Under the pieces are notes generated by a model, which was not told the DNA's origin, searched no databases, and saw only the letters and a list, made by a program, of their open reading frames with translations. Shown piece by piece: positions 15,441-45,791 of a stretch of 64,000 nt of DNA. This DNA comes from Magnolia sinica (Eukaryota > Streptophyta > Magnoliopsida > Magnoliales > Magnoliaceae): positions 40,214,336 to 40,278,335 of the forward strand of contig NC_080575.1 of the NCBI RefSeq assembly GCF_029962835.1, written 5' to 3'. The position numbers were made by a program, and so were the translations under genes. Within the stretch, counting starts at the first letter, position 1. Each line of letters begins with the position of its first letter.

Positions 15441-15575
15441 CACTACCAAAAAATCGAGCAAATACTACGAACTTTGAAAGTTTTTCGCTAAGGATATAAA
15501 CCATCGTTAAAATGCTATAGATTTAATCTGTAACTAAAACCTAGTTAATCTGTAGCTAAAACCTATGTCCCCATC
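15441..15575 (+). repeat. CACTA left terminal and subterminal region
   Basis: It starts with the terminal inverted repeat CACTACCAAAAAAT. Degenerate units such as AATCTGTAGCTAAAACCTA follow near 15545, related to the GCTACGGAT units at the right end. Subterminal repeats are where CACTA transposase accessory proteins bind. Confidence 0.7.
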
Positions 15576-15579
15576 AAGA

Positions 15580-15905
15580 TCTTATTAGAGATTAATGGTG
15601 CTTAAGGGGCTCCGTGGGGTTCATTGTTATATATGTGTTTTATCTAAGCCACCCATCAATTCTGATATATAATTTCAGTGGATGAACCCAAAAAGTAGGA
15701 AGATTGAAGGTCTAAGTGGACCACACCATAAGAAATAATTAAAAATAATTTTCTATCATTAATATGTTATGTGGTTCGCTTACAACTTCAATCTGAATCC
15801 TTTTTTGAATCAACTGTTAAAATGAATGGAGGGAGTGGAAAAATAACATACATCACAGTGGGCCCCATGAGTGCTAAAAGCAAGCACTAAAGGTGCCGTC
15901 CATTA
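15580..15905. mobile_element. Foldback MITE-like copy (GGGCCCAC family)
   Basis: The left arm has GTGTTTTATCTAAGCCACCC and the right arm GTGGGCCCCATGAG with TAACATACATCACAG in inverted orientation, as in the copies at 59735-63205. It is degenerate and non-coding. Confidence 0.55.
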
Positions 15906-15916
15906 ACCCTAAAACC

Positions 15917-15965
15917 TAAATGTCCCCGCTAATCCTCCCGCGTGCGCCCATCTCTCAAAACTCAA

Positions 15966-16007
<42 letters not shown>

Positions 16008-16263
16008 GCACTCAGCCTCTCCCTTTCCCTCGCCTTCTCTCAATCTCTCTATCTCTTGGCCCCATTCCCCTCTCTTTGTTTCCCAACCTCTCCCTCTCTC
16101 TCTCTCTAGGGTTTTCAAAACCCCTTTTCGCCGTAAACCCACCATTGATTTGCGAGCAGACCCTATGTCGGGTTTTCGAAACCCCTTTCTCCAACCCTCG
16201 TCACCGTCTCAGCTTATCCACTAGCCGAAGCCTTCATCCAATTGCAATTTCTTCTTTGCTTAG
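15917..16263 (+). other. Captured 5' UTR-like segment with CT microsatellite
   Basis: A CT run (15969-16004) is followed by pyrimidine-rich sequence with TCTAGGGTTTTC motifs. A good splice donor TTAG/GTACGT follows at 16263/16264. This is the usual look of a plant gene leader exon. The donor gene is not identifiable because no coding part follows. The open frame 15920-16300 is low-complexity. Confidence 0.45.
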
Positions 16264-18599
16264 GTACGTTAATAGATCTGGACTTTATCCAACTCCATGA
16301 ATCAACCCTTAAAGCCATGTAGGGAAAAATGGTCCATATTTTTAGGGATTTTCCAATTTTTTCAGTATTTTTTAGGATTGAAAGTTGTTTTTGGAACTGG
16401 ATTTAGGGGTTTTGGTGCCAAAGTGGTATGAAGAGGGGTTTAGGGACTTGGAGATTTGATTCTCATCCATTGATTTGATTTCATTTCTTAAGTTTTCGGG
16501 AGGAAAAGGAAATGTCCCTTCTCTGAGGAATGAAAACTAATTTCATCACTGCTTTGGGCTTCCACAAACGAAGGGAACCATTACATAAGAGGAAATCAAT
16601 TTCTTTTTTCTGGTGAATCTTGTTCTCCACCAATCTGAACAGGCCCTGAAGTGATGCTTGTGGATCTATTGTTTGAGAATCGCTTATGAGACTTGTTTGA
16701 TTTTATTTCAGAAAGATATTGTTGTTTATCTTTAGTGGCAACTCTTATTTTTGTCATCTTTGGTGGTAGTTTGTAGATTTCTTATTGTTTTATTTCTAAA
16801 CAGCCCTTGTAGACCTTAATAAACAGCCCTTGTAGACCTCAATTAGCATTTAATTTACGTTAATAATACAAGGAGTTATTTGATACTCTAACAATCCATG
16901 ACTCTAGATGATTGGAATTTTAGAGTGTTTCCCCTATTAGAATAGAAAAAATTGTGGATCACATTGTTTGTCTTTCAAATTCTAATTTTATCTTTGGAAT
17001 TTCTGTTTCTATGGTTGGTTGATCTGGTGAGCTCTTTATTCTGTAGATCTATACCATGTCTCTCTTTTGGAAAAGCATTCGATGTAGAATCCTTGGCCCT
17101 CATTCGGCAATGGAGTCTCGTGCTAATTTAGTTATAGTTTCAAATTGGTATTTACATAAAGAGTATAAATGTTAAATGCCATGACTTCCTATACATTTTT
17201 CTGCACACAAATTCCCATTGGAAATGTGGCAATTTTATTTTTTTACGTGATCGGGACCATCCATTCTGCAATCCACACTATAATGGGCCATGACCAAAGA
17301 TCGGTCCAATTGGATAGTCCTAGCTGCTTGATTTGAGGAAAAAAGGCAGGTCCTTGGGCCCTATTCTGATTAAGCATTTAGGATGGTTTGATAGGCCTAA
17401 TTTTTTAAACCATGCTCATGTATGGTGATATTGTACAAGTCTACCATACATTCTTGTGGCAACTTATGTGTAAAAATGTGTACAGGTCTGATAGGCCTGA
17501 TTTTTAATTCATCAATATCTATTTTGGGTTTTCTTTTCATTTTCTATTGATTTGTATTTTGGGTTTCCTTTTAATTTCCATCTAATGGTTATTTGGGTTT
17601 TGATTAATATCAGTTTCTTGGATCTTCATCAATACCTATTTTGGGTTTTCTTTTGATTCCCTCAATCATCAATAGAAATCAAGCAACAATAAGTTGTAAT
17701 CTTATTTTCTCAATGCAGAAATCCAATGAGAATGCTGCTCAAATGCAGAGATCTAATGAGAAAATCATCACTGGCATATGTGAACAGCTCATGAATTTCT
17801 TTATTTTAAACTTAGTTTTATAAGTTTATGATTTGTGATTTGAATTCTGCATTTGGATGTATTTAAATGGTTGTTTCATGAAATGGAGAGCCACTAGTGG
17901 TGTTTATGATAATTGCATATTGGGCTCTGTTATGGATCATATATGGTCATCTAAATTCTTTATTTTTCCGTTTTGATTAACTGTTTTTCTGCTTAGCATC
18001 CATTGGTGTCACAGTTTCCTTTCTATGATATGCAGGCACTTAAAAATTGCATACGTGGCATATAAGTATCCATTTTCAAAGGTCAGGATTATTTGACCAA
18101 TCTTATCGTAGGATGTGACTTATTGACTGCCAGTTCCACAATTTAGTCAATTTAATTTGATTTCATAATTAATATATGCCATAGACAAGGTGATGGGGGT
18201 GTTGCCTTTTAAAGGAGCATGTTTTCTGGTAATGTTAGTTGCTTCTCCTATTAAATGAGAGTCTAAGATGTTGGGGGGATCCAAAAAAAAAAATATTTTT
18301 AGAAACTGAGTTCCTGACTTCTGTTTTACGCCAGAAATCCAGACAATGTAGCCTACTTGGTGGAAAAATCTGATCAAGCACACAATTGTGGCTGAGTATG
18401 GACGGACAGGGACAACACTCTCCACGTGTGGAATTAGCAAACCTCCTGAATGCATATTGTTGCATTTATAGTTCTATAAATTTTTAAATTAATTTTTATA
18501 TAGAAATCTACATGCTAATTGTTTGAAGAAATGCTTTAATTCCTTCCATGAGAGGTGATCTTCAACTTTCTAAGTTAGAATAGTGTATTAAGCTGATAT
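16264..18599. other. Non-coding CACTA interior, unassigned
   Basis: A T-rich, intron-like stretch. A short exon-like piece follows an acceptor at about 17717 (AATGCAG/AAATCC) and encodes SNENAAQMQRSNEK. I cannot identify it. The segment 18296-18470 looks exon-like but has stops in every frame I checked. Nothing else is recognisable. Confidence 0.4.
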
Positions 18600-18850
18600 G
18601 TCTATTCCATCCAAGCAGGAGTAATGCCTTGGTGATCTAAACTATTGATCTGATGGGCTCTAGACCATAGGAAACTGTGGAGATTAAGGGCTTACCATCG
18701 ATCTGTAATGTGGTCCACTTGAGCCTTCGATGTATCTCCTTTTTGGGATTAAACACTAAAACTAAATGCCAAAACAAATAACATATTGGATGAACCACAC
18801 ACATCACAATGGGCCCTATAGAGCCCTTTAAAAGACTGCCTGTCTCTAGC
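18600..18850. mobile_element. Foldback MITE-like copy, right half
   Basis: The sequence has GTGGTCCACTTGAGCCTTCG, then the tail CACACACATCACAATGGGCC. This matches the right halves of the family copies at 62560-62700 and 63040-63160. Confidence 0.55.
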
Positions 18851-18889
18851 TCATGGGCATAGTATCAAATCCACGCCCAAAAAAATGAG

Positions 18890-19073
18890 CCCGCAAGTTT
18901 CTTTTTATTCTCGTAAGCTCAGGGTTTCTTTATCCCTCCCTCTCTCAAAAGTTTCCAATTCCCTCTATCCATCTCTCTCCTTGTTCAATCTCTTCTCCTT
19001 CAGATGTGGAAATTCCAAGACATCAGTCTCCAAATCAAGATTTCTCACATTTACATAGGAAGAATTTCTAGGG

Positions 19074-19124
<51 letters not shown>

Positions 19125-19160
19125 TCTCCTTCGCATTTACACAAGAAGAATTTCTAAGGT
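18890..19160 (+). other. Second 5' UTR-like pyrimidine-rich segment
   Basis: Pyrimidine-rich sequence with a CT run at 19078-19122. The short block AGAAGAATTTCTA-GGTAATCTC is present on both sides of the run (19057-19080 and 19145-19168), which suggests a local duplication with a splice-donor-like GGTAAT. The open frames are low-complexity. Confidence 0.4.
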
Positions 19161-19437
19161 AATCTCTCAAAAGTTTCCAACTGGTTAGATGTTTGTTGCC
19201 TTTATTTGGTTAGTGTGCTTGTTGGACTTTTCCTTGCATGCTTTTGTTGCCTAGGGAACAAGCTGACCTTGTATCATTTATGGTTAGCTCTTACCTGAAG
19301 TGAATTTTGTACATAGTTCAACAAGAAAGTTGAACTGATTAGTAGTACAATCTCTTGGCCTTTTAAAGTTTCCATTGATTTCAAATGCTCTGATCTATTT
19401 ATTTGTGTTTTTTTTTTTTTTTTTTTTTTTTTTGCAG

Positions 19438-19564
19438 AACTATTTTGTCTTTACCCCTGATGATTAATGATGTGCATTCAGTAATTACTTTAAAGACAAA
19501 GAACGTGTTCATTGAATGCATAGCCACTGATTTGACAAAGGCTACAAGTGTTTTAAATACAATG
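19438..19564 (+). pseudogene. Captured exon of phenylalanine-tRNA ligase beta subunit
   Basis: A polypyrimidine tract and TTTGCAG precede the exon, and GTAAGC follows it. The 127-bp exon is open and encodes LSLPLMINDVHSVITLKTKN followed by VFIECIATDLTKATSVLNTM. This closely matches the B3/B4-type region of eukaryotic cytosolic PheRS beta, where relatives read [32 protein letters not shown]. The full subunit is about 600 residues; only about 42 are here. The intact splice sites show that genomic DNA was captured rather than a cDNA. It has no stop codon but lacks all catalytic context, so it cannot work as an enzyme. Confidence 0.8.
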
Positions 19565-20249
19565 GTAAGCAAGAAAGTTTCATTTGCAAGTTTTTTGCTA
19601 GGATTTCCTAAAAATATTGAGCTTTCTTACTAGGTTTCTTCCTAAATCATCCAAGGATAGTTAATATGTTAAAGAGATACCATATCCCTATCCTTTTCAT
19701 TTCTTCTCCCGCTTGAAACAAAATGGATAGGGTTGCCCTATCTATAATTGATTTGGCATCAAACAATTCAGGTGTGATTTATGAATATATATTAAAAAAA
19801 AAAGGCTGTAATCATCTGAAGTTTTTTTTTTTGGGTCACTTTTCCTATTTATGCATTTATAAGGTTGTGGGGAAATTTTCAGAATTATTTTTAAACACTA
19901 TTATGGGCCCCTTCTACTTGCATTTCCACTGATTGAGAATGATTAAATGATTCTTCTTTTCTGTTTCTTTTAAATTTTAGTTTTATTGTTAGTCTCAAGC
20001 CATTTATATGAAACTAATGCAATGTTTACCATGTTCGAGAAGACTATCATGCTAGCATTCATGATGTAACATCAATGGAATCAACTTATAGACCTATCAT
20101 CTTTACCATTTCTCTATTGTTTCAATTGTCTTATATTTCATTTAGATGTATGTAGAAATATGGAGAATACATAATAGCTCTAGGAACTTAGGCTTCTCTT
20201 ATTAGTGAGTAAAGGTGACTTTGACCCATAGGCAACCCATAGTGGGCTC
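19565..20249. other. Non-coding CACTA interior
   Basis: T-rich, intron-like sequence, probably flanking intron captured with the PheRS exon. No gene seen. It ends with GGGCTC at 20249, the left target duplication of the nested Gypsy element. Confidence 0.4.
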
Positions 20250-23200
20250 TGTCACGCCCCAAACCTGGAGATCGGATTCACAGGAATCACGATCGCCGAG
20301 TCCGGCGCCGACAGCCTCCGTAGTACCCCATTCTCGGCTCCTAACGTTCATACGTCAGATTCCGATCCTGGGATCCCACAAGGAGGATTTTTTTTATATA
20401 TATACATTTAACTCGTAATAAGCATATCCACAAGATTACCCAATTCACAAAGGCAACATCATCATCACATATCCATTAATATAATCATTTGAATACAATA
20501 CTGAAAGGAAAATACATAAATAAAAAAAATCAAGCTCCAGAGGACTGCTACATGCTCCAAGCTCAACACTGCTGCAACCTATCATCATCTGCACGCATCT
20601 ATCATGCATAAGCTTATAGAAAGCTTAGAGGGTGGTGTAAGTGTGTGCACAAGGTAAGTGCCAAGTATTCAATACAATGCCATTATCATACAAACTGGAA
20701 ATACTGGTAATCCATAAATCGTACAATATCGGAATAAGCAAAGATACTAGCAAGATCATGAATTATCTGAATAAGGAGAAATACTGACAAGAGCAGGAAT
20801 TATCAGAGTAAACAGAAATACTCACAAGATCATAGATCATACGATAACAGAGTAAGCGAAAATATGAACAAGTTCATGAGCCAATCAATATCAGAATACG
20901 CAGTATATAATAGCTATGCAAACGAGGAGTCATAAAGAGCCAAATATCAAATGCCGAAAATGCAATAGGGTATATAATTCCTTATGTGTTCACAAATACG
21001 TCAGCCATATCTAGACCATATAAATGCAGAAGCACAGTAACCCAAGATGTCGTATACCGCGGATGTAATGCAATATGCGGTGCGAATGGAACGAACATGC
21101 TGGAGTGTGAAGTCGGGATGGTAGTACGTAGTATCGCAGGCTATGGGGTCCATCACAAGGGACTTCTATCCAAACTAGTCCCATACCTAAATTTGGATAG
21201 TCAGACTCAATGTGGTAAACTCCTGATCTCAGGTTAGTCGCGCGCCCTAACCGAAATCCTGGCCATTGCGAAGGCACACGTAACAACTAGTTGCGTACCA
21301 CCAACCCAAGTAGATAGTAAATGAATGAATGCGTGAATGAGTATGCAACTCCTGCTCACTAAATCCACATATTAGTACAGTTCATCTCTGGGATCATCAC
21401 CGGGGTTTAGTACACTCCAAATGACACTGCCGCTCTCCTAGCAGCACAATCCAAGTGAGCGTAAGAAACCTCACTATCCGCCTGACCAATAGTCTGCCAA
21501 TACTTATCCGGCACGTCGATAGTGGACCCATTCACGAGCTAGTCAAACTCAGCCTAGTATTGCCCCCTACCCTCAGGCGGGTAAGGCCACACCCCCTCCC
21601 AACCGACCACGACACAGTAGGAGACGCGGCTCCTGGTATTCGGCACTCGGGCGCTCATGCATCCACTCGGTCTCGACGTTGGGGCGTCTCCTGGCCACGG
21701 AGGTTTAGGGATTTTCACCCAGGGACATCTATGGCGCCTGTATGCTAGAACCAAACATTTCCGGTGTCCCATTTGGCCATCCACGATATGCCTGTGGAGG
21801 CTACGACCCTGATGTCGCTAGGGCGTACAGTAATCATAATGCGAGATGCATGAGTCATACAATCCAGTCATGCATCAATCCTGCGCACACCGCGTGCTGA
21901 TGCGAGATAACCTCTGCCTATCAGGGAGTCTCATAACACGCTCAATGACATATGCAATGATCAACCACATCTCATAACAAACATGCAGATGATGCGTATG
22001 GGCATGTATCATGATGCTATGGTGTCACATACTCATAATCGGTATGAATAACCGGCATCGACCATCAATCACAACAATGTGGACATTTAACCAACATTGT
22101 CCCCCAAGGTATGGCCCACATAAAACCAAACATATAATGGGCCCACAGCCTTACATAAAGGCCTAATATACAACACAATGAGCGTTACTCAAGGGTCACA
22201 TATACGCAATAAGTGGGCCCTGCTCATGGGCCTCAAATACATGACATATAGGCCCTGCACATGAGTCTCGAATGCATCAAATAGGTCATGCATCATGGGC
22301 CTAATACACATCTCAATGGGCCTTATTACATAGACCTCCTATTCATATTAGGCCTTAAACACCGGCTGCATATACATCAAATAGGTCTCGACAAACGAAA
22401 TCGGCCTTAATAATTGGATTTGACAGTCGAAACCGGCCTCGATACTTGGCCTTGGCAATCAGAATCGGCCTCAATCAATCGGCCTATACAATAAGTATCG
22501 ATGAGAATGGGTCTAACTAGGCTTAAGGAAAGGTCACCATGTGGGCGTTTAACCATCATTACCCAAAAATGTGGACATTCAACCAACACTGCTCCCAAGC
22601 AGTGGTCCGCATAGAGTTAATCATAAGGTGGGCCCAAATATCCAATAAGTGGCCTTAATTAGTCATCACAGGTGAGCCTTACACATGAAGCACTTGGGCC
22701 TACACATCATGGCGGTCGATACATTGGGCCGTACTAATGGGCCTCATATACAACAAGTGGGCCGCATTAATGAGTCGTACAATGCACAATAGGTAGGCCT
22801 TGCACATACAGCAGATAGGCCCCACTAGATGGTTAGTGAGGACATAAAATGCATACATCTAGTGGGTCACACATCCCACGAATGGTGTGAATAAAACATA
22901 CATCGAGGCTAGTCCTCTATGACCTGGACGGTTAGGGTGGAACATATGAGGTGGGCTCTGATCAAAATGAATATGAGCCTAGACAGACTATATGCTATAG
23001 GAACGGGCCTATTAATGGGCCCTAGGGAGAGAGTGACAATGCAGACATTAAACCAACATCATCCTTACAATGTGGACATCAAACCATCATTGCTCCCAAG
23101 GTATAGTCCACTATAAAATCAACATAAATACCATGGTGGAATCACACTACAATGGGCCTTATTACATCATATTGGGCCTCGACCCGTGGGCCCTAAATAC

Positions 23201-26200
23201 ATCTAATGGGCCTCATACATGGGTCTCGTATATACTTATCAAGGTGGGCCTCATTATATGGGCCGCACCAAAAATCATTTCAATAGTTGTAGGTATAACA
23301 TGTGTATTACTCCACTCATGGCCCACATATGATGATTAGCACTGTACAAACATATCCATCTAAATCGGCGCCAATCAAACATTGTCTTGCACTATCTCAA
23401 CACTATGGACGGTGTGGATACAAAATACGTACATCTAGGCGGGCCGCACAAGTGGACGGTATGGATGAAGGACACATAGCATGGTAGGCTTATACAGTGT
23501 AGGTGGGCCCAACACATGCAGCAAGCGGGCCCTACGCCATCAAGACGGGAAGACAGTGCAGATATAAAATACATACATTGGGGGAAAGTCCCACCATCCA
23601 GCGGGCTAAATGGTGTGGATATACAATACATTTATCATGGCGAAATCACACATTGAAATGGGCCTTATATACATCATATTGGGCCTCGACCCGTGGGCCC
23701 TAAATACATTTAATGGGCCACATCGCACGGGCCTCAACTACATAACAAGGTGGGCCTTAACAATGGGCCATAAATATGGTAAGTCGGCCACACCACATGG
23801 GCCACATGTATATCAAATGAGCCACACTCAAATATAAGTGGTGATAATGATTTCCACTACTAAAATTTCCAAGGCCCGCCATCACATTTATTTCCCATCC
23901 AATCAAATCATAAGATCTTAAGGATTTCAAAGGTAGCTGTTCGATCCTCACCGTGCACTATGGTCCACCTGATAAATAAATCTGTCTTATTTTCATCCCA
24001 AACCTAAAAATCATTTCCCAAAAAATGGTTGGACGGTTGGATGAAACACATGCATCATGGTGGCGCCGTCTCTAATGGAGGGTATGGTTTACAATACATA
24101 CATAAGTGGGTCCCATGTGGGGCTTACCATAATGTTTGTTTCTCATCTAACCCATTGATAAGGTCACTCAGATCTGGGGCCCACATTAATATTCATTTCC
24201 CACCCAACCAAGGCCCATTGTAATGTTTATTTTCATCCAACCTATGCATAAGGCCACTTGGACCTGGGTGGGACTGGGCCCACCGTGCTATTTATTTGCC
24301 ATCCAACTGTTTATAAGTTCACAGGGACCTTGGGGTAGGGCCCACTGAACCGTTTATTGCCCATACAACCTGTTGATAGGGTCTGGTCAGGGGCCCACCG
24401 CAACATGGTTTACTAATCCAGCCCACCCATTATGTGTGTCCCACTTAGCTGAGGGTTCAGACCGAGTTTCAGCTTAATCCAAATTTCAGGTAAGCCCCAC
24501 CAAGTGTTCTTATGTGTTTAGGCATGTCTTCACATGACTTTAGATAGCGTGGCCCACCTTAGTTCCGTATACATCTGAGTTTCGGGGCAGCCACCTGGTC
24601 CGAGGGGACTCACCCAATGCACGGCGTTGATTTTCGAACGCATAACGGTGGGACCCATAGCTGGGGCCATGAGGCCCAGCTCGACCTCCACGCGGCAGCG
24701 GCGGACACTGCTGCTGCTGCTTTTATATTTTTTATTTTTTGAAAATTTACTTTTTCGAGGAATTTCCTAGGTGGGACCCTCATCAGTGAAATCCAGCCCA
24801 CCCATTATGTGAGTCTCACTTGTCTGACCGTCCACACCAAGTTTCAACAACATCCAAAACTCGGGTAGGCCCCACCAAGTGATTTTATATGTTTTTGTAT
24901 GTCTTCACATGACTTTAGATGGTATGGCCCACCTGAGATCCATATAAGGCTTATATTTGGGGTGGACATCTGGTCTGTGGGGACCCATCCAATGCATGGA
25001 GTGGATGTTTGAAACGTATCACAGTGGGGCCCACGGCTAGAGCCGTGAGGCTGCCTCGTCCATCCGTGCGTCAGCCCAGGCGCTGCCTACGGTCGCCCTG
25101 CAGCAGCGTCAGTGCTGCTCCTCTCTTCTTTTTTTTTTTAAATCTGATTTTCTACAGATCTTCGTAGGTGGGGCCCACATTGGGCAGATCCACTCCATTC
25201 ATTGGATTTCACGGTCTAAAACCAACCAAAAGAGTCCGATATACAGCCTATTTTTGGAGAATAAAAGAATCTAGGTGGGTTTCAAGGGTGATACCGCTAT
25301 TTCCTATGGTATGGCCCACCGAAGAGTCGGATTACCCTCAAAGTTTGGCTCAACGCCTAAAATGAACTGGAGAATGGAATGGACGACTTGGATTGATTAC
25401 ATACATTAGGGTGGGGCCTGCATGAGTGGCCCACCACTTCTTCTTCCTTTTTTGCAAGTACACACCCATGTTATAATAGGCACTTCACTTTAGCCTTACT
25501 CGTCCAGCGTCCCACGTCCAGCGTCCGGCATGGAATAACATAGTGGTGGGTCCCACGCCGATGTGGCCACATTTCATCAAGGTGGGTCCTCACATGAATG
25601 AGGCCCACCTGATTTAAATCAAACCGATACTTGTGTGTTTCCACTACCATAAGGTAGGGTCCACATGACTTGGACTGTTTGGATAAAGGATAATACATAC
25701 CTCAAGGTGGGGTTCATCCAAATGGGCCATACATCACAAAAAAAAATGAGAAAGAGAGAGAGAGAAGCACCCACCTTAGATCTTGGACTCCTTCCACCAA
25801 TGTGATCTAGAGCTCCAAAGGAACAAAATTCAATGGTTGAGATTGATTTTAGAGGGTTGGATTTAGGGGTGGAGAGCTTACAAAAGGGTTGAAAATGGAG
25901 AGCTCTAATGGACATTGGGAGCTCTCTCTCTTGCTAGGAAATAAGAAAGAAAGAGGGAGGGAGAGAGATAAGAGAGAGAGAGAGAGAGTAATAAATGCAT
26001 GTCATAATGAATGTAAGGGAGGGGGTTAGGGGTCTAGACTAGCTATAGGTGGCTAGGGGTCTAGACTAGCCAAGGTGGGTAGGAAATTATGAGGATGATG
26101 ATGTCATGCATGTATAGGGTGGCGTGTCATGCCATAGGTGGGTCCCACAAATGCGATTAAGGTTCAAATAAAGCACGGCCTACATCTTTTGATGTACATC

Positions 26201-26406
26201 TCGGATTGTCATACGAGACGCGGCGTTGGAACCGCAGCGACGATGCGGTCGCAATGACATAGGTCTTAGGTCAAGCCGACTCAAAATTACAGGATGACAC
26301 TCAAAGTTGCATGCAAATGCTATCTACGCATCGCAGGTCACCGGAATTCGACCGGGAGGACCGCAGGAGCCTATGGAATGGTACATGCTAGGATACGAGT
26401 CTCACA
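20250..26406 (-). mobile_element. 3' LTR (element orientation) of the nested Gypsy element
   Basis: 6157 bp. It contains conserved blocks of the local LTR family in reverse: the end block (ATCGGATTCACAGG near 20270), the ATGCGTATGGGCATGTATC block near 21988, and long stretches of interspersed GGGCCT/CATATAC units between about 22080 and 23830. Segments at 23950-24500 resemble the foldback MITE family. GCTGCTGCT runs lie near 24710. CT/GA-rich sequence lies near 25745-25990. No gene; open frames repeat in the sister copy only because the LTRs are duplicates. Confidence 0.88.
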
Positions 26407-26420
26407 GCTCTCCCCTCCTA
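26407..26420 (-). other. Polypurine tract of the nested Gypsy element
   Basis: On the minus strand it reads TAGGAGGGGAGAGC immediately before the LTR. The conserved stretch GACGAAATTTTTATT lies just inside it. Confidence 0.8.
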
Positions 26421-26801
26421 ATAAAAATTTCGTCCTCAAAATTTAAAACACAATACGACCAATGCAAAGCTCACAAAGGGAGGGAAAATCTTATTAGAAC
26501 ACAACATACCAACATAATCAAATGCCTAGGAGATGGAGACAACGCCCACAAATCTCAGCCTCTTGCTCTCTAGACGCCTCATCAGCACTATGATGATCCA
26601 ACTGAACCTCGAATCTTGAATCAGAAACGATTGAAACTGGAATACAATACATCCTCATAATCTCAACGAAAGGGAGCTATATCAGAAAATCTCTAAGTTA
26701 TTCGAACTCGGGGATCTAATTTTCTAAGTTCTCAACAATCATATAGTGAAAGGTAGTTATTAGTAAATATGTGATGTTATCTTTAAGTATTCCCAAGTTA
26801 T

Positions 26802-26813
26802 GCTCTGATACCA
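26802..26813 (-). other. Primer-binding site of the nested Gypsy element
   Basis: On the minus strand it reads TGGTATCAGAGC, a perfect initiator-Met tRNA primer site, five bases from the LTR end. This fixes the element orientation. Confidence 0.9.
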
Positions 26814-26818
26814 ACTTC

Positions 26819-26955
26819 TGTCACGCCCCAAACCTGGAGATCGGATTCACAGGAATCACGATCGCCGAGTCCGGTGCCGACAGCCTCCGTAGTACCCCAT
26901 TCTCGGCTCCTAACGTTCATACGTCAGATTCCGATCCTAGGATCCCACAAGGAGG

Positions 26956-27005
<50 letters not shown>

Positions 27006-30000
27006 TTAACTCGTAATAAGCATAACCACAAGATTACCCAATTCACAAAGGCAACATCATCATCACATATCCATTAATATAATCATTTGAATACAATACT
27101 GAAAGGAAAATACATAAATAAAAAAAATCAAGCTCCAGAGGACTGCTACACGCTCCAAGCTCAACACTGCTGTAACCTATCATCATCTGCACGCATCTAT
27201 CATGCATAAGCTTATAGAAAGCTTGGAGGGTGGTGTAAGTGTGTGCACAAGGTAAGTGCCAAGTATTCAATACAATGCCATTATCATACAAAATGGAAAT
27301 ACTGGTAATCTATAAATCGTACAATATTGGAATAAGCAAAGATACTAGCAAGATCATGAATTATCTGAATAAGGAGAAATACTGACAAGAGCAGGAATTA
27401 TCAGAGTAAACAGAAATACTCATAAGATTATAGATCATACGATAACAGAGTAAGCGGAAATACGAACAAGTCCATGAGCCAATTAATATCAGAATACGCA
27501 GTATATAACAGCTATGCAAACGAGGAGTCATAAAGAGCCAAATATCAAATGCCGAGAATGCAATGGGGTATATAATTCCTTATGTGTTCACAAATACGTC
27601 AGCCATATCTAGACCATATAAATGCAGAAGCACAGTAACCCAAGATGTCGTATGCCGCGGATGTAATGCAATATGCGGTGCGAATGGAACGAACATGCTG
27701 GAGTGTGAAGTCGGGATGGTAGTATGTAGTATCGCAGGCTATGGGGTCCATCACAAGGGACTTCTATCCAAACCAGTCTCATACCTAAATTTAGATAGTC
27801 AGACTCAATGTGGTAAACTCCTGATCTCAGGTTAGTCCCACGCCCTAACTGAAATCCTGGCCATTGCGAAGACACACGTAACAACTAGTTGCGTACCACC
27901 AACCCGAGTAGATAGTGAATGAATGAATGCATGAATGAGTATGCAACTCCTGCTCACTAAATCCACATATTAGTACAGTTCATCTCTGGGATCATCACCG
28001 GGGTTTAGTACACTCCAAATGGCACTGCCGCTCTCCTAGCCGCACAGTCCAAGTGAGCGTAAGAAACCTCACTATCCGCCTGACCAATAGTCTGTCAATA
28101 CCTATCCGGCACGTCGATAGCGGACCCATTCACGAGCTAGTCAAACTCAACCTAATATTGCCCCCTACCCTCGGGCAGGTAAGGCCACACCCCCTCCCAA
28201 CCGACCACGACACAGTGGGAGACGCGGCTCCTGGTATTCGGCACTCGGGCGCTCATGCATCCACTCGGTCTCGACGTTGGGACGTCTCCTGGCCACGGAG
28301 GTTTAGGGATTTTCACCCAGGGACATCTATGGCGCCCGTATGCTAGAACCAAACATTTTCGGTGTCCCATTTGGCCATCTATGATATGCCTGTGGAGGCT
28401 ACGACCCTGATGTCGCTAGGGCGTACAGTAATCATAATGCGAGATGCATGAGTCATACAATCCAGTCATGCATCAATCCTGCGCACACCGCGTGCTTATG
28501 GGAGATAACCTCCGCCTATCAGGGAGTCTTATAACATGCTCAATGACATATGCAATGATCAACCACATCTCATAACAAACATGCAGATGATGCGTATGGG
28601 CATGTATCATGATGCTATGGTGTCACATACTCATAATCGGTATCAATAACCGGTATCGACCATCAATCACAACAATGTGGACATTTAACCAACATTGTCT
28701 CCCAAGGTATGGCCCACATAAAACCAAACATATAATGGGCCCACAGCCTTACATAAAGGCCTAATATACAACACAATGAGCATTACTCAAGGGTCACATA
28801 TACGTAATAAGTGGGCCCTGCTCATGGGCCTCAAATACATGACATATGGACCCTGCACATGAGTCTCGAATACATCAAATAGGTCATGCATCATGGGCCT
28901 AATACACATCTCAATGGGCCTTATTACATAGACCTCCTATTCATATTAGGCCTTAAACACGGGCTGCATATACATCAAATAGGTCTCGACAAACGAAATC
29001 GGCCTTAATAATCGGATTTGACACTCGGAACCGGCCTCGATACTTGGCCTTGGCAATCAGAATCGGCCTCAATAAATCGGCCTATACAATAAGTATCGAT
29101 GAGAATGGGTCTAACTAGGCTTAAGGAAAGGTCACCATGTGGGCGTTTAACCATCATTACCCAAAAATGTGGACATTCAACCAACACTGCTCCCAAGCAG
29201 TGGTCCGCATAGAGTTAATCATAAGGTGGGCCCAAATATCCAATAAGTGGCCTTAATTAGTCATCACAGGTGAGCCTTACACATGAAGCACTTGGGCCTA
29301 CACATCATGGCGGTTGATACATTGGGTCGTACCAATGGGCCTCATATACAACAAGTGGGCCGCATCAATGAGTCGTACAATGCACAATAGGTAGGCCCTG
29401 CACATGCAGCAGATAGGCCCCACTAGATGGTTAGTGAGGACATAAAATGCATACATCTAGTGGGTCACACATCCCACAGACGGTGTGAATAAAACATACA
29501 TTGAGGCTAGTCCTCTATGACCTGGATGGTTAGGGTGGAACATATGAGGTGGGCTCTGATCAAAATGAATATGGGCCTAGACAGACTATATGCTATAGGT
29601 ACGGGCCTACTAATGGGCCCTAGGGAGAGAGTGACAATGCAAACATTAAACCAACATCATCCTTACAATGTGGACATCAAACCATCATTGCTCCCAAGGT
29701 ATAGTCCACTATAAAATCAATATAAATACCATGGTGGAATCACACTACAATGGGCCTTATTACATCATATTGGGCCTCGACCCATGGGCCCTAAATACAT
29801 CTAATAGGCCTCATCATGGGTCTCGTATATACTTATCAAGGTGGGCCTCATTATATGGGCCGCACCAAAAATCATTTCAATAGTTGTAGGTATAACATGT
29901 GTATTACTCCACTCATGGCCCACATATGATGATCAGCACTGTCCAAACATATCCATCTAAATCGGTGTCAATCAAACATTGTCTTGCACTATCTCAACAC

Positions 30001-33000
30001 TATGGACGGTGTGGATACAAAATATGTACATCTAGGCGGGCCGCACAAGTGGACGGTATGGATGAAGGACACATATCATGGTGGGCCTATACAATGTAGG
30101 TGGGCCCAACACATGCAGCAAGCGGGCCCTACGACATCAAGACGGGCAGACAGTGCGGATATAAAATACATACATCGGGGGAAAGTCCCACTATCCAGCG
30201 GGCTAAATGGTGTGGATATACAATACATTTATCATGGCGAAATCACACATTGAAATGGGCCTTATATACATCATATTGGGCCTCGACCCGTGGGCCTTAA
30301 ATACATCTAATGGGCCACATCACACGGGCCTCAACTACATAACAAGGTGGGCCTTAACAACGGGCCATAAATATGGTAAGTCGGCCACACCACATGGGCC
30401 ACATGTATATCAAATGAGCCACACTCAAATATAAGTGGTGATAATGATTTTCACTACTAAAATTTCCAAGGCCCGCCATAACATTTATTTCCCATCCAAT
30501 CAAATCATAAGAACTCAAGGATTTCAAAGGTAACCGTTCGATCCTCACCGTGCACTATGGTCCACCTGATAAATAAATCTGTCTTATTTTCATCCCAAAC
30601 CTAAAAATCATTTCCCAAAAAATGGTTGGACGGTTGGATGAAACACATGCATCATGGTGGCGCTGTCTCTAATGGAGGGTATGGTTTACAATACATACAT
30701 AAGTGGGTCCCATGTGGGGCTTACCATAATGTTTGTTTCTCATCTAACCCATTGATAAGGTCACTCAGATCTGGGGCCCACATTAATAATCATTTCCGAC
30801 CCAACCAAGGCCCACTGTAATGTTTATTTTCATCCAACCTGTGCATAAGGCCACTTGGACCTGGGTGGGACTGGGCCCACCGTGCTATGTATTTGCCATT
30901 CAACTGTTTATAAGTTCACAGGGACCTTGGGGTAGGGCCCACTGAACCATTTATTGCCCATACAACCTGTTGATAGGGTCTGGTCAGGGGCCCACCGCAA
31001 CATGGTTTACTAATCCAGCCCACCCATTATGTGTGTCCCACTTAGCTGAGGGTTCAGATCGAGTTTCAGCCTAATCCAAATTTCAGGTAAGCCCCACCAA
31101 GTGTTCTTATGTGTTTAGGCATGTCTTCACATGACTTTAGATAGTGTGGCCCACCTTAGTTCCGTATACATCTAAGTTTTGGGGCAGCCACCTGGTCCGA
31201 GGGGACTCACCCAATGCACGGCGTTGATTTTCAAACGCATAACGGTGGGACCCACAGCTGGGGCCGTGAGGCCCAGCTCGACCTCCATGCAGCAGCGGCG
31301 GACGCTGCTGCTGCTGCTTTTATATTTTTTATTTTTTGAAAATTTACTTTTTCGAGGAATTTCCTAGGTGGGACCCTCATCAGTGAAATCCAGTCCACCC
31401 ATTATGTGAGTCTCACTTGTCTGACTGTCCACACCAAGTTTCAACAACATCCAAAACTCGGGTAGGCCCCACCAAGTGATTTTATATGTTTTTGTATGTC
31501 TTCACATGACTTTAGATGGTGTGGCCCACCTGAGATCCATATAAGGCTTATATTTGGGGTGGACATCTGGTCTGTGGGGACCCATCCAATGCATGGAGTG
31601 GATGTTCGAAACGTATCACAGTGGGGCCCACGGCTGGAGCCGTGAGGCTACCTCGTCCGTCTGTGTGTCAGCCCAGGCGCTGCCTGCGGTCGCCCTGCAG
31701 CAGCGTCAGTGCTGCTCCTCTCTTCTTTTTTTTAAAAATCTGATTTTCTACGGATCTTCGTAGTTGAGGCCCGCATTGGGCAGATCCACCCCATTCATTG
31801 GATTTCACGGTCTAAGACCGACCAAAAGAGTCCAATATACAGCCTGTTTTTGAAGAATAAAAGAATCTAGGTGGGTTTCAAGGGTGATACCGCTATTTCC
31901 TATGGTATGGCCCACCCAAGAGTCGGATTACCCTCAAAGTTTGGCTCAACGCCTAAAATGAACTGGAGAATGGAATGGATGGCCTGGATTGATTACATAC
32001 ATCAGGGTGGGGCCTGCATGAGTGGCCCACCACTTCTTCTTCCTTTTTTGCAAGTACACACCCATGTCATAATAGGCACTTCACTTTAGCCTTACCCGTC
32101 CAGCGTCCCACGTCCAGCGTCCGGCATGGAATAACATAGTGGTGGGTCCCATGCCGATGTGGCCACATTTCATCAAGGTGGGTCCTCACATGAATGAGGC
32201 CCACCTGATTTAAATCAAACCGATACTTGTGTGTTTCCACTACCATAAGGTAGGGTCCACATGACTTGGACTGTTTGGATAAAGGATAATACATACCTCA
32301 AGGTGGGGTTCATCCAAGTGGGCCATACATCACAAAAAAAAATGAGAAAGAGAGAGAGAGAAGCACCCACCTTAGATCTTAGACTCCTTCCACCAATGTG
32401 ATCTAGAGCTCCAAAGGAACAAAATTCAATGGTTGAGATTGATTTTAGAGGGTTGGATTTAGGGGTGGAGAGCTTACAAAAGGGTTGGAAATGGAGAGCT
32501 CTAATGGACGTTGGGAGCTCTCTCTCTTGCTAGGAAATAAGAAAGAAAGAGGGAGGAAGAGAGATAAGAGAGAGAGAGAGAGTAATAAATGCATGTCATA
32601 ATGAATGTAAGGGAGGGGGTTAGGGGTCTAGACTAGCTATAGGTGGCTAGGGGTCTAGACTAGCCATAGGTGGGTAGGAAATTATGAGGATGATGATGTC
32701 ATGCATGTATAGGGTGGCATGCCATGCCATAGGTGGGTCCCACAAATGTGATTAAGGTTCAAATAAAGCACGGCCTACATCTTTTGATGTACATCTCGGA
32801 TTGTCATACGAGACGCGGCGTTGGAACCGCAGCGACGATGCGGTCGCAATGACATAGGTCTTAGGTCAAACCGACTCGAAATTATAGGATGACACTCAAA
32901 GTTGCATGCAAATGCTATCTACGCATCGCAGGTCGCCGGAATTCGACTGGGAGGACCGCAGGAGCCTATGGAATGGTACATGCTAGGATACGAGTCTCAC

Positions 33001-33001
33001 A
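26819..33001 (-). mobile_element. 5' LTR (element orientation) of the nested Gypsy element
   Basis: 6183 bp and near-identical to 20250-26406. Part of the length difference is a longer TA run at 26958-27002. It carries the same conserved LTR blocks and no genes. Long LTRs are typical of Tekay/Del, but more than 6 kb is at the upper extreme. Confidence 0.88.
26958..27002. repeat. TA microsatellite
   Basis: An uninterrupted TA run of about 45 bases. The sister LTR has a T run and short TA stretch at the same place, so this tract expanded after insertion. Confidence 0.9.
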
Positions 33002-33205
33002 GGCTCACATGGATGGACGATCTAAATAATGATGAAATAGCAAATGCATCCAATATGTTGAGAATGAATTGCACTCAACCATTCCTAAACCACAAATCAT
33101 TTTCAAATTGCAAATGCAAATGCATACAAGATAGGTTTTGTCATGTGTGCATGTATGTGCCCGCTCCCTTTTCAACATGAACTAATTTCTTGCTATTATT
33201 AACAG

Positions 33206-33299
33206 GGAGCTCATAAGCCCTACCATGTACTTTGGGCTAATGGGTGATGGACAACCCCTTGGCTGGTACGACGACATGTGGGCAGGGTGATGTTCTAAG
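33206..33299 (+). pseudogene. Captured exon of UDP-arabinopyranose mutase (RGP family)
   Basis: An acceptor (ATTAACAG) precedes and GTAACT follows. The frame encodes [20 protein letters not shown], then YDDMWAG, a stop, and CSK. Plant reversibly glycosylated polypeptides (UAMs, about 360 residues, cytosol/Golgi face, interconverting UDP-arabinopyranose and -furanose for cell-wall synthesis) read [20 protein letters not shown] followed by DMWAGWC. The TGA at 33288-33290 replaces the Trp codon TGG, and Arg before YDD is now Trp. The sequence 33425-33490 may be a badly degraded following exon. It is non-functional as an enzyme. Confidence 0.82.
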
Positions 33300-34084
33300 G
33301 TAACTTATCTAAGTTTCTCTATTTCCCCATCATTTTTTCCTGTAGCGACTTGTTTCCTAAGATGAATTTGTTTTTCCCTCTAAAGCAACAAATTTGGGTG
33401 TAAATGACAAACCAAAACTTACAGGGTTCAACATGAAAGTGGTCAAAACGTCTACTGGTCATGTAAGAAGCCTCGCTTCTAATGTTGACATCAACACATG
33501 GCCTGATTGGTAGTTCTTTTTCATGCTTCTGAGTATATGGTTCTTCTTCTTATGTTTTTTTCTTTTTGCTAGTGCATACCCTCATTTTTGTTTTCTTCCA
33601 AATTCCTGCCGCAAAGAAATAACTACTCGTTTTATGATGGAGAAGGGAAAAAATAGAGAAAAAATCTGATCATTTCATATTAGTATGTGCATCTCTACTA
33701 TTAGTGTTGGTCCGGTCCTTTTCTTGTATGTGGGGGTGATGATGGCATGTGTTGTTTTCTTCTTTATATAGACAAATAGTTCTTGGCAGCCAACTTTTGG
33801 AGTGTGCTATACTACTCAGATCGACTAATGTGCAGGGCCCCATAATTTCTCTCCTGTGTTATTTTATTTACACCCCATCAATGTATTACTTTTTATATAG
33901 TCAAGCCAAAGTCTTTTGATCTGTTTATTCTACGGGAAGATGCTTCCAACAGAATTTCTTGTATAGACCCGACACCCCATAAGGATCTGTCATAAATTTT
34001 TTTAACCATTAGTCTTTGTTTATCAATATATCTAGTCTTATGGGGTGTCTGTTTAAGTTTTCTTTATGTCTACGTTGCTGACAG
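33300..34084. other. Intron-like spacer between captured fragments
   Basis: T-rich sequence. The segment 33423-33490 has scattered resemblance to the next RGP exon (GTCAAAAC at 33445), but no frame holds. Otherwise nothing is recognisable. Confidence 0.3.
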
Positions 34085-34268
34085 GGTTCATGAATTGTCT
34101 TGTTTGTGGAAAATTGGAAACATCAATAGTTTCTTTGTTGATGAGAGAGGCACAATGAAGTCAGTTGTCCAATACTTCCAAGAGACCTATGGATTTGTTA
34201 TCCAACATACCACATGGCCATGTCTGTAAGTTGGAAATCAGAATTGACCAAACTATCTGCCTATGGAG
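34085..34268 (+). pseudogene. Captured ARGONAUTE (AGO1/AGO10 clade) PAZ-domain exon
   Basis: The exon is flanked by TTGCTGACAG and GTCAGC. The frame from about 34137 encodes [20 protein letters not shown], then VIQHTTWPC, a stop, VGNQ, N, a stop and PNYLPME. AGO1/AGO10 proteins have, after the PAZ domain, [32 protein letters not shown] and RPNYLPMEVC. The two stops are simple C-to-T changes (CAA to TAA, CGA to TGA). The part before VDERG is more diverged. AGO proteins bind small RNAs and slice or silence targets. Only about 60 of roughly 1000 residues are present, without the PIWI domain, so it is a pseudo-fragment. Confidence 0.85.
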
Positions 34269-34544
34269 GTCAGCATTTCATAGACTTTTCCCTTGTTTGC
34301 AACCTTGAATGCTGAAAACTGCACCATTTGACATGAACTTATTACTTGATGGCACTGAATCATTCTCGTTGATAATGTGTGGAACTAAATGATATTTTGG
34401 GCTCACCATCTCCTCATATTACAATCATTCTATTAACAACTTTTTTTTAGGCCTCTTTATCATTTTGTCACTTATTCATTGCTCACATGCCCATGTTTTT
34501 GTGTTGAGTCATTTATTTCATTTCTGTCAAATTGATTATTTCAG

Positions 34545-36655: not shown

Positions 36656-36659
36656 AATG

Positions 36660-37150: not shown

Positions 37151-37184
37151 CGTCAAAAAAAGGGCGCGCGTTCAAAACAGAGCC

Positions 37185-37270
37185 ATGCCCAAAAAACCTT
37201 TTCCTCTCCTCTCCCTCGCTCTCTCTCTTTCCTTTCCCTTATTTCCCTCTCTCCTGATCTCTGCTCCCAG

Positions 37271-37322
<52 letters not shown>

Positions 37323-37520: not shown

Positions 37521-37961
37521 AGGTTTGTATCCACCATTCTCCAGCCATGCATCTCCACCATCCTTTCATATTTTTGTGACATCTCTTAAAATCGGAGGAA
37601 TATGAGGTTCCTCTTCATATGTTTGATCTACTCTCTCTATATCTTTTTTTCTCTCTTTCAGATTTCATGCATACTAACTGTTTGATGAAATGGCTCAACA
37701 AAGAAGGTTTTGGTGGTAGAACTTTGTTGTGATTACTGTTGATGCTATTGTAATTTTGTTCATTTGTTTCTGTGGTGATATTCTTCAGCCCTCAATGCAG
37801 GCAAATTGTTGTGTAGCTAAATTTTCATATCAAATCCAAGGATCGTCAGTATTTTCTTTACTTTTAGTTGACCCTTTATTTCATTTGTTTGATGTAAATG
37901 TGAAAGGCTATTTCTAAGTCGATATCTCCAAGACTATGCTCTACTAATTTTAGTTCTGCAG

Positions 37962-38034
37962 ATTTTTTTGGGCATTTGAAGTAGGAAACAATCGTAAAAT
38001 CCGCCACTCAGAGTGTGCAAGAACAACATGGAAA
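37962..38034 (+). pseudogene. Unidentified captured exon
   Basis: It lies between an acceptor (AGTTCTGCAG) and a donor (GTGAGT) and is open for 73 bp, encoding WAFEVGNNRKIRHSECARTT. I do not recognise the protein. Confidence 0.4.
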
Positions 38035-39949: not shown

Positions 39950-40030
39950 GTTCTTCTACTTCAACATCTACAGTTGTCTCCACTGAAGGTGCAGCAAAAA
40001 TCAGTTTTTCTAGCTCTATTGCCACTACAG
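39950..40030 (+). pseudogene. Unidentified captured exon, Ser/Thr-rich
   Basis: Acceptor CTTTTACAG and donor GTGAAG bracket an 81-bp open segment encoding SSTSTSTVVSTEGAAKISFS. The composition resembles a plastid transit peptide or a linker. The family is not recognisable. Confidence 0.35.
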
Positions 40031-40124
40031 GTGAAGTTCTTTTTTTAATTTCTTTTTAAAGGCACTCTTGGATCTCTACTGACATTGCTTACTCTCGCAA
40101 GCATGCTTCCACCCATTACAAGAA

Positions 40125-40238
40125 ATTAGAGGTATCTTTATTTCATGCCTTTGGGCACATGATTGAATTACAGGTATCTTTGTTGCATGCCTTTCGGCAC
40201 ATGATTGAATTAGAGGTATCTTTATTTCATGCCTTTGC
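40125..40238. repeat. 42-bp tandem repeat, about 2.7 copies
   Basis: Units beginning ATTAGAGGTATCTTTATTTC and containing GGCACATGATTGA repeat with a 42-base period from 40125. The last copy is truncated near 40238. Confidence 0.85.
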
Positions 40239-40452
40239 AATTTGAGTTCTTTGCCCTATCAGGTTGTCTTTGATTTTATTTTATTATTTTTTTATGCATG
40301 ACTTAGTTTTTGAGAATTCTCCATGCCAATTGAATTGGATCGTAGCTAAACCTTGGCTCAAGTAATGTTGGGGTGGAGCATAAGCTAGGCTTCTTGTAGT
40401 GAATATCTTGTAGCTATATAACTTATATTTGCATTGGTGAGAAACTATTCGT

Positions 40453-40580
40453 GGACCTGCAGATCTTGGACATGCCAACCGTTTATTCATTACAATATTT
40501 GACAGTTTGAATGGGAAATGCCAGAAGGAACTCAAGACAATTGGGAGGCAATATCCGTTTAAACCTTTAAAGCTCAATTT
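40453..40580 (+). pseudogene. Unidentified captured coding segment
   Basis: An open stretch encodes GPADLGHANRLFITIFDSLN, then GKCQKELKTIGRQYPFKPLK. It has protein-like composition and no stop, but I cannot name a family and the splice borders are unclear. Confidence 0.35.
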
Positions 40581-40734
40581 TCTTTGCCATTATGAGTTTC
40601 GAAATGTTGAATTTGCTCTATATGCTTGTTGTCTTCATTGATCATTTTCTATTTGCCTTTGTTATAACTTGTATATGTCTGTTAATTGAATTGTATTGGC
40701 ATCTGATTTTTACACACCTCACTGTAGAATCTAA

Positions 40735-40815
40735 ACATTTGGACATCTTTTATTTTCCCCATATGGATGTATGGCGTGGATAAAACACATGCATTAACAT
40801 GGGCCCACAGATGTA
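40735..40815. mobile_element. Foldback MITE-like fragment
   Basis: The arm GTGGATAAAACACATGCATT next to ACATGGGCCCACAGATG matches the conserved right arm of the GGGCCCAC family. Confidence 0.5.
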
Positions 40816-41859
40816 GGATCTTCACTCTGACAAAATGTCCTTCGGTTTCTTCAGTCCCACTTTCCAATGCTTGTGTAATTTCAAATTGGATGTCTTTACT
40901 CCTACCTTTGGCTATGGAAAGAGGAGTTTGTGTAATTACCAATATGGGTGCAAGTAAGAATTTCTTATCATTCACTGAGCTTGCAACATTTCAATTACAT
41001 GATATTGATGAATAGTTGTTTGTTACTAACATGTCTGGATCTTTTTCTTGGAAATGGATCTACGTGTTGCATAGGTAGCAGTCCTAAATATTTTTTGTTT
41101 ATAGTTTGAATTTAGTTTTTTGTCTAATTAGCTAGCAATCAAAGGCCTCAAATGTATTTTTTAAATAACTTGTTAGTAAAGAATCATTTTGATTTGGATT
41201 TTTTGCTTCTTCTTCTTTTAGGTTTTTGGATTATTGCAAAAGAAGGCTACAAAACAGAGGTTTATTTTATTTTTTAATTTTTATTTTCAAGTGGTTTTGA
41301 TTTGGGTTTTCTCTAAAACAGAGGCCCTTTGTCTGTTTTATCAGTTAAATGATTGTTAGGCCATGTTATATCCATGATAGGTCTGCTATTTAACCGCTAT
41401 GCATACGACTATGCAGTTCATGGTTCTCCACCATAGAAATAGTCATGTTTTCCATGCCAACCCGGAATTTGTAAAACGGACCTGCTATCTGGTGGAACAC
41501 ATGTATACATCAAATGTGCTATGAATCAAGTTTTCTTAACTATGTCTTCTTGTCTACACATGAGGAGCACATGATTAGCCCAAGGACCCGAGTTTTGGGC
41601 CAGCACATCAAAACCCTAGAAACAAATGTATCATAGATGAGTTATATTCTTTTAGAAGTATAGGTACCATGTAGTTGCCAAAATGGTGATTTGAGCACGA
41701 CACGTCTGTCCGCCCCCAAAAATGGAGAAAATTTCGAAACAAGCAGGAACACTGAAATGTCCTTCTAAAGATCCATTACAAGATGTCTCTTATAAATCTT
41801 TAAAATAGGACTTAGTTTAGAAGGATGAATGATGGGGTACTTTTGCATGTTTCAAACAG
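40816..41859. other. Non-coding CACTA interior
   Basis: T-rich sequence without recognisable coding similarity. The part next to 41860 is probably sulfite reductase intron. The open frame 40767-41015 is unconvincing. Confidence 0.3.
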
Positions 41860-42481
41860 GTCTGGCTCGGGGGAACGCTTAACCAAACCTCACTAGCAAA
41901 AGGTTTTATGAATAAGGTGAAGATTAATGATCTAGAAAAGGTTTTGGAGCCATTGTTCTACAACTGGAGGCGCAAATGCCAATAGGGAGAATTTTTCAGC
42001 GATTTCACAACCCGCCTTGTGAGTACCCAAGTTTGTATTTGGGTCATGTTATTTATAACATCTAAATTTGTTTTAGCCATACTTGCAACTTGAATTATTT
42101 CATGGCTTTTGGGATCTGAAATTTAGCAAATGTCTAATCATTTTTAAAAGAACACTACCACAGGTTTTGCCCCATTTTCATTTACATATCATTCCTGGGG
42201 CAAGTAATAGAAAATCCGAACAGTTCTATACCAACAAAGTAAGCATACATTAAGTTTCTTCCTGTCCTATACAGGGCTTTGACAAACTAAAAGAGACAGT
42301 TGAGAAGTGGGAGGGCTTAACAAAGGCACCAACACGATTTAATCTAAAAGTTTTTGCTAACAAAGATACATATGAAGCCATGAATGAACTTGCAAAGCTG
42401 CAGAATAAGACTGCTCACCACCTGGCCATGGAAGTCATCTGTAACTTTGTTGCTGCTAAGCAAAATGGCAAAAGTGAATGA
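41860..42481 (+). pseudogene. SIR: Captured 3' end of ferredoxin-dependent sulfite reductase
   Basis: Two exons flank a 256-bp intron. Exon 1 (41860-42018, after TTCAAACAG, donor GTGAGT) encodes VWLGGTLNQTSLAKGFMNKV, then DLEKVLEPLFYNWRRK, CQ and a TAG stop, then GEFFSDFTTRL. Exon 2 (from 42275, after CTATACAG) encodes GFDKLKETVEKWEGL, RFNLKVFANKDTYEAMNEL, and ends QNGKSE with a TGA at 42479-42481. This is the C-terminus of plastid sulfite reductase, which reduces sulfite to sulfide in sulfur assimilation. The four cysteines that bind the 4Fe-4S/siroheme centre lie upstream and are absent. The natural stop codon is kept, but the internal TAG breaks the frame. Confidence 0.9.
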
Positions 42482-42859
42482 TTAGCCCCTTTTTTCAGCT
42501 ATTTCTATTTGTTGAATAAATACCAATTTAGATGAACTTATCTTTTTTCTTTATTTCTAAATCATGGATGAGTGAGACTTAGTTGAAAGGAACTTGAAAT
42601 ATATAACCATCTACCAGGCTGTTGCATCGTTTTCCCCTGTACAAACAGTTCTGATTTTGATTTTTTTCATAGGTATCCCCAACACCAGAATCTTGCATTT
42701 CCTTTTCCAAAATCTTTCGACTCAGATCCATCAAATGAGACCATGTGATTGTAATTAAATGAATGAATGATTGTAATTAATTGATTGAATGATTGTAATT
42801 GAATGAATGAATGATTATGCAGGTGGTAATTGAATGAATGAATGATGATTATAATTTTT
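42482..42859. repeat. Sulfite reductase 3' flank and GATTGTAATTGAATGAAT tandem repeats
   Basis: After the stop codon there is a plausible 3' UTR (GTTGAATAAATACC near 42514). From about 42745 to 42850 short units close to ATGATTGTAATTGAATGA are tandemly repeated. No other gene. Confidence 0.6.
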
Positions 42860-43155
42860 TTTTAATGTAGGAAATAGCTATGGATATTAACCATAGCTGT
42901 TATAAAATTTGGCATATTGCTACGGATCCAACATCACTTTTAGCTACCAATAATATCCGTAGTTGTAGGTGCTTTTGGCTATAGAAATAATCCGTAGCTA
43001 TTTTAAGCTATTGCTACGGATTAAATCCGTAGCCATAGGTTTTAGACCTATTGACATGACACCTACGACTATGGTCGTGCTACGGATTTAATTCGTAGCT
43101 ATAGGTCTATAGCTACGGATTTAATCCGTAGCCTTTGCCCATTTTTCTGGTAGTG
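42860..43155 (-). repeat. CACTA right subterminal repeats and terminal inverted repeat
   Basis: Many direct and inverted copies of GCTACGGAT / ATCCGTAGC occur, for example near 42921, 42953, 42991, 43012, 43078 and 43113. The terminal repeat follows, ending TTTTTCTGGTAGTG at 43155. Dense subterminal repeats of this type are characteristic of CACTA elements. Confidence 0.85.
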
Positions 43156-43158
43156 CGT

Positions 43159-45742: not shown

Positions 45743-45791
<49 letters not shown>

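Follow-up and report, generated by a model that had tools for sequence, protein, structure and literature searches.

A non-autonomous Pack-CACTA transposon of Magnolia sinica carrying pieces of at least five unrelated host genes

The window considered here is a 64-kb stretch of Magnolia sinica DNA (C3:40214336-40278335 of a 1.84-Gb assembly in 127 contigs), and it harbours a transposon with CACTA ends in which at least five segments derived from host genes lie within one unit, the same chimera being found in independent copies elsewhere. With high confidence the element can be regarded as a non-autonomous Pack-CACTA, one member of a many-copy family, whose genes were captured serially. The donors comprise PheRS beta, UDP-arabinopyranose mutase (UAM), an AGO1-like gene, an ELMO-domain gene and sulfite reductase (SiR), with aspartyl-tRNA synthetase (AspRS) as a probable addition. 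An earlier reading of the letters (the original prediction) had claimed at least five unrelated donors, which holds, though with a changed list: PheRS beta, UAM, AGO and SiR are supported by protein matches and all lie on the plus strand as proposed, while FANCD2 found no support where it was searched for. It had overlooked a nested long terminal repeat (LTR) retrotransposon, a segment adjacent to an SDN gene (SDN-adjacent), the ELMO segment and the probable AspRS exon.

The element begins with CACTACCAAAAAAT at 15441 and closes with CTGGTAGTG (also read as TTTTTCTGGTAGTG), the last base being 43155. Without the nested retrotransposon and one copy of its 5-bp duplication the CACTA proper measures 14,958 bp. 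On the plus strand of the window CACTACCA occurs five times and TGGTAGTG once, and among these the 15441/43155 pair alone has an identical triplet on both sides, namely CGT. Three features of the CACTA superfamily are thus present: terminal inverted repeats beginning with CACTA (CACTACCAAAAAAT / CACTACCAGAAAAAT), a 3-bp target-site duplication, and short subterminal repeats in both orientations. Counted in either orientation over the 15-kb element, CCGTAGC is found seven times and TACGGAT eight times, every one in the last 235 bp or so; the 5' side of the window copy has decayed versions only, and the copy at sister locus L002 still has GGCTACGGAC close to its 5' end. The ends, the duplication and the subterminal repeats described in the original prediction are therefore real, the repeats being clear at the 3' side and degenerate at the 5' side. 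Its outer limits were likewise right, but nearly half of the length between them belongs to the nested retrotransposon. The transposon interrupts the pol gene of another retrotransposon, with RVT_1 on its left (E 2.2e-23) and RNase H on its right (E 2.1e-26), an order which suggests a gypsy-type pol. A transposase of the Transposase_21 type, carried by autonomous members of the superfamily, is lacking as expected for a non-autonomous element and as the original prediction had stated: no model matched in the six frames of 15441-20247 and 33007-43155, nor in the three forward frames of each of the sister elements L008, L009 and L010.

Alignment of the cargo to the same genome revealed gene loci for PheRS, UAM and AGO, as well as for ELMO, with open exons, so host-gene pieces present elsewhere in the genome, a feature of Pack-TYPE elements, are found here. 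The PheRS segment, the left limit of which was set by the extent of the donor piece compared, matches a locus with two open exons at C10:74.058 Mb with 80.6% identity including introns, rising to 88% over 19417-19634. Another locus, C1:57.823 Mb (86% over 19302-19903), was rejected as donor because it is a degenerate PheRS copy. The UAM segment is 88% identical to C9:66.298 Mb, a locus recognised as RGP (E 1.3e-19), and 85% identical to C5:113.13 Mb; its exon has one in-frame stop in the window copy. For the AGO segment 92.9% identity, introns included, was found to a gene at C2:35.9 Mb that holds ArgoN, ArgoL1 and PAZ domains and, judging from its sequence, appears to be AGO1-like. Since introns are kept in the donor matches, capture took place at the DNA level. 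Over 57 codons the window copy of the AGO exon differs from the donor by five synonymous and three nonsynonymous changes, two of the latter three being in-frame stops, and the AGO exon of L002 is disrupted by an insertion that shifts the frame and by a stop. Sister loci on C10 and C12 have about 370 bp more at window position 33975/33986, and this extra DNA includes an AGO exon from further upstream, which corresponds to donor positions 2167-2261 at 90-93% and is absent from the window copy. Because these sisters keep the exon, the captured AGO piece must formerly have been longer, the window copy having lost part of it. An RNA-silencing gene among the cargo, as originally claimed, stands by virtue of AGO1.

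The DNA matching the SDN-adjacent segment lies 0.6-0.8 kb from exons of an SDN1-like nuclease, SDN standing for small-RNA-degrading nuclease (5z9x, E 5.2e-7), and similar DNA is present at further loci. The ELMO segment consists of two blocks (34585-34631 and 34638-35061), between which about 0.7 kb of the donor gene is absent; the donor locus itself gives PF04727 at E 5.4e-22. As a donor of 34378-34803 the locus C13:36.03 Mb was also considered and set aside, since it holds a piece of window 35712-35804 as well and is probably another derivative. This locus (C13:36.033 Mb, with similar matches at 36.027 Mb) has SDN-like exon text together with an SDN-adjacent/ELMO-like chimera. Towards the 3' end the SiR exon is followed by an open stretch that is presumed to be the last SiR exon, which gave no match in the PDB at E up to 10. 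A 761-bp SiR block (41800-42560) returned 41 matches from the best 40 of 126 candidates; several of these matches fall in members of the family that were already recognised. The AspRS exon is a suggestive further donor, all four of its weak PDB hits being to AspRS.

FANCD2 was looked for in several ways. The FancD2 Pfam model has three matches in the genome (C1:20.999-21.000 Mb and C10:46.46 Mb) and none in the window. DNA searches reached nothing near these loci from 19400-19800, 33150-33500, 34085-34560 and 34560-35030, with all candidates scored, nor from 33010-35000 and 41800-42560 among the best 40 of 125-126 candidates; 15441-19400, 35030-41800 and 42560-42840 were outside these searches. 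The original prediction gave no coordinates for this gene, and the open reading 34547-34631 was assumed to be the stretch meant; the PDB gave nothing for it at E up to 10, and at the DNA level it falls within the SDN-adjacent and ELMO segments. Across the parts searched, a DNA-repair gene among the cargo is unsupported.

Relatives were collected with a 303-bp probe of the 3' end, for which 40 of 2,179 candidates were scored, the window copy among them, and the 10 best after it were compared over 20 kb each. L002, on C2, is a full-length colinear copy identical at 14,009 of 14,823 aligned positions (94.5%) and flanked by its own duplication, CAA; the chimera moves as a unit, as in Pack-TYPE elements. 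Elements sharing the ends, which the original prediction had suggested looking for, exist at L002, L005, L008, L009 and L010. Those at L005 (GAT), L008 (AAA) and L009 (TTC), with duplications read by eye, have both ends and differing interiors; L004 retains part of the interior. The UAM block has 32 matches; at 10 other loci the match covers 298 bp or more of the 351 (93-96%) and at another two 230-279 bp, and at six other loci PheRS and UAM are found about 0.6 kb apart. L009 (C1:45.42 Mb) gave a fragment of delta-aminolevulinic acid dehydratase (ALAD) in a forward-frame Pfam search, above the curated cut-off (E 3.1e-6); the captured gene is therefore a different one in at least one element sharing these ends. 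In sister loci L005, L006, L008, L009 and L011 related repeats form tandem arrays, which lie directly upstream of the common 3' block in L005, L006 and L011 and outside the element in L009. These arrays are possibly satellite DNA that was captured or seeded.

The nested LTR retrotransposon corresponds to a 6.2-kb direct repeat, the copies of which are read as minus-strand LTRs with 96.7% identity (170 mismatches in 6,187 aligned columns). It consists nearly entirely of LTR, with just 412 bp between the two, in which a primer binding site of the iMet type was recognised by eye, and it resembles stretches 1288-5903, 8844-12697 and 45252-52417 of the window. At its position L002 has an empty site, and five further loci (C1, C3, C5, C6 and C10) are empty judging by the PheRS-UAM spacing of about 0.6 kb. 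The retrotransposon is younger than the CACTA element and was inserted later. Another repeat between UAM and AGO is unclassified and possibly MITE-like; the exon-like short open stretch 33418-33500, with matches of 80-89% over 73-86 bp at nine other loci, may belong to it.

Table 1. Features of the Magnolia sinica Pack-CACTA element (window coordinates)
Feature	Position	Strand	Remarks
5' target-site duplication CGT	15438..15440	.	
CACTA element including nested retrotransposon	15441..43155	+	27,715 bp total
5' terminus (CACTACCAAAAAATCG...), degenerate subterminal repeats	15441..15570	+	
PheRS beta exon (about 19437-19565) and flanking intron DNA	19229..19634	+	protein match E 3e-6
GGCTC, left copy of nested retrotransposon's duplication	20245..20249	.	
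Nested LTR retrotransposon	20250..33001	-	12,752 bp, LTRs 20250-26406 and 26819-33001
GGCTC, right copy of nested retrotransposon's duplication	33002..33006	.	
UDP-arabinopyranose mutase (RGP) part-exon and intron	33199..33420	+	Pfam RGP, E 5.7e-6
Dispersed repeat, 387 bp	33497..33883	+	24 other listed places, 93-95%
AGO1-like PAZ exon and flanking introns	34004..34298	+	PAZ Pfam; AGO10 chain E 1.8e-12; left border possibly ~33980
SDN-adjacent segment	34293..34590	+	93.4% to DNA at C5:83.752 Mb
ELMO/CED-12-domain gene segment	34585..35061	+	two blocks, 90-91% to C1:347-348.5 kb
Probable cytoplasmic aspartyl-tRNA synthetase exon	40459..40575	+	weak: 4/4 PDB hits AspRS, E 0.12-1.2
Sulfite reductase exon	41854..42018	+	maize SiR chain residues 510-564, E 8.6e-13
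Open 68-residue stretch ending in stop	42275..42481	+	presumed last SiR exon
3' subterminal repeats (CCGTAGC/TACGGAT) and 3' terminus	42871..43155	+	
3' target-site duplication CGT	43156..43158	.	

Several observations weigh against a serially filled, mobile Pack-CACTA family and have to be taken into account. The SiR donor gene was not picked out by the block search among the best 40 of 126 candidates, and that of AspRS was not located, no genome search having been made for it. The located donors are presumably intact genes, 0.55-6.5 kb having been read per locus. L002 starts with T instead of C; L010, which has both ends and a differing interior, shows a duplication with a one-base mismatch (TTA/TTG, by eye) and no Pfam family in three forward frames; L003, a relative with an internal deletion, has a damaged 5' end; and for L004, L006, L007 and L011 the 20 kb compared revealed no matching 5' end. 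In L008 the forward-frame Pfam search gave sub-threshold F-actin capping (E 0.0014) and DUF1764 (E 0.012). An autonomous partner was not identified by scanning the window element, L008, L009 and L010.

It could also be supposed that each gene piece reached the CACTA as a small insertion of its own, by a separate transposition, as the element does draw insertions (the 12.75-kb LTR retrotransposon and the 387-bp repeat). This is very improbable, however, since the identical order and junctions recur at other loci, the AGO, SDN-adjacent and ELMO segments follow one another directly, their donor matches overlapping by 6 bp each (34293-34298 for AGO/SDN, 34585-34590 for SDN/ELMO), and no flanking duplications were noticed at the junctions read, which were not put to a systematic test. 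Assembly chimerism, by which unrelated sequences would have been joined, is refuted with near certainty because the full-length L002 on another contig carries the same joins, as do several partial copies, likewise on other contigs; the identity of these copies is 90-97%, not 100%. Both explanations had been named in the original prediction as fatal to its claim, and the recurrence of the junctions tells against each.

A different question is whether the chimera is expressed, either with captured exons spliced into transcripts or through small RNAs acting on the AGO1, PheRS and UAM donors. The exons share one orientation and have splice-site-like borders (read by eye). Splicing of this kind is documented for the soybean element Tgm-Express1 (PMC1947982), and maize Helitrons, Pack-MULEs and Sireviruses are reported to cause conflict through small interfering RNAs that derive from the genes they captured (PMC13317346). 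Against expression stand the two in-frame stops in the AGO exon of the window copy, the one in its UAM exon and the frame-shifting insertion and stop in the AGO exon of L002, and expression is considered unlikely. Still less credence is given to the idea that the lineage serially collects essential or silencing-related genes (AGO1, DNA adjacent to an SDN-type nuclease, two aminoacyl-tRNA synthetases) as a cargo that shields the element; if this were true, small RNAs directed at the element would at the same time strike the host's AGO1 and translation genes.

For the serially filled Pack-CACTA the following history can be proposed. A CACTA transposase acting in trans would move the copies, and genomic DNA would have been picked up stepwise at the DNA level, either when neighbouring insertions were mobilised jointly or during gap repair in which the template was switched; gap repair is said to be the mechanism of Rubin and Levy. 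Joint mobilisation is a published route (PMC13317346, PMC8903248), and the Rubin and Levy mechanism is cited as a capture route in the consulted part of PMC8978399. The SiR-containing 3' block would be the old, widely shared part, and the PheRS-UAM-AGO-SDN-ELMO block would have been assembled within a younger sublineage, deletions eroding it afterwards. The 6-bp overlaps are compatible with joining at short homologies, though they were not compared with chance expectation. Divergence decreases from the donors (AGO 7%, ELMO 9-10%, UAM 12%, PheRS introns more) to L002 (5.5%) and the nested LTRs (2.7% mismatches), a series that would fit capture followed by spread and by the nested insertion; this order could be disturbed by selection on the donors, by a wrong paralogue taken as donor, or by gene conversion.

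Soybean and maize already provide examples of CACTA elements that collected several genes, so that the word "remarkable" in the original prediction was too strong, and the present element is a good new example. Tgm-Express1, from the soybean wp allele, belongs to the CACTA superfamily and is described as having five unrelated host-gene donors (PMC1947982). Like the Magnolia element it combines parts of exons and introns from unrelated host genes, but it is 5.7 kb long compared with 15 kb here and its donors are different; moreover its transcription and alternative splicing were demonstrated (PMC1947982). In maize, Pack-CACTAs contain the highest number of loci among the Pack-TYPE classes (PMC8903248). 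Pack-CACTAs of maize and Arabidopsis likewise combine CACTA ends with coding DNA from several loci; in contrast, the present case is a defined, recurrent PheRS-UAM-AGO-SDN-ELMO-SiR chimera in a 1.84-Gb genome. The Chenopodium CACTA element Jozin also has captured gene fragments, and its satellite DNA can be compared with the tandem arrays beside the 3' block in the sister loci, but in the account consulted its captured pieces are single genes and lie upstream of transposase-associated domains (PMC8978399). Among the titles listed from the open-licence literature, none dealt with this element or with a magnoliid Pack-CACTA.

The value of the element lies in a well-resolved case of serial gene capture, much of whose history is readable. 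Donor loci, a full-length sister, intermediates with more of AGO and a datable nested insertion allow much of the order of capture, spread and decay to be followed from one genome. With an AGO1 exon among the cargo, the proposed conflict between silencing of the transposon and silencing of the donor is open to a direct small-RNA test.

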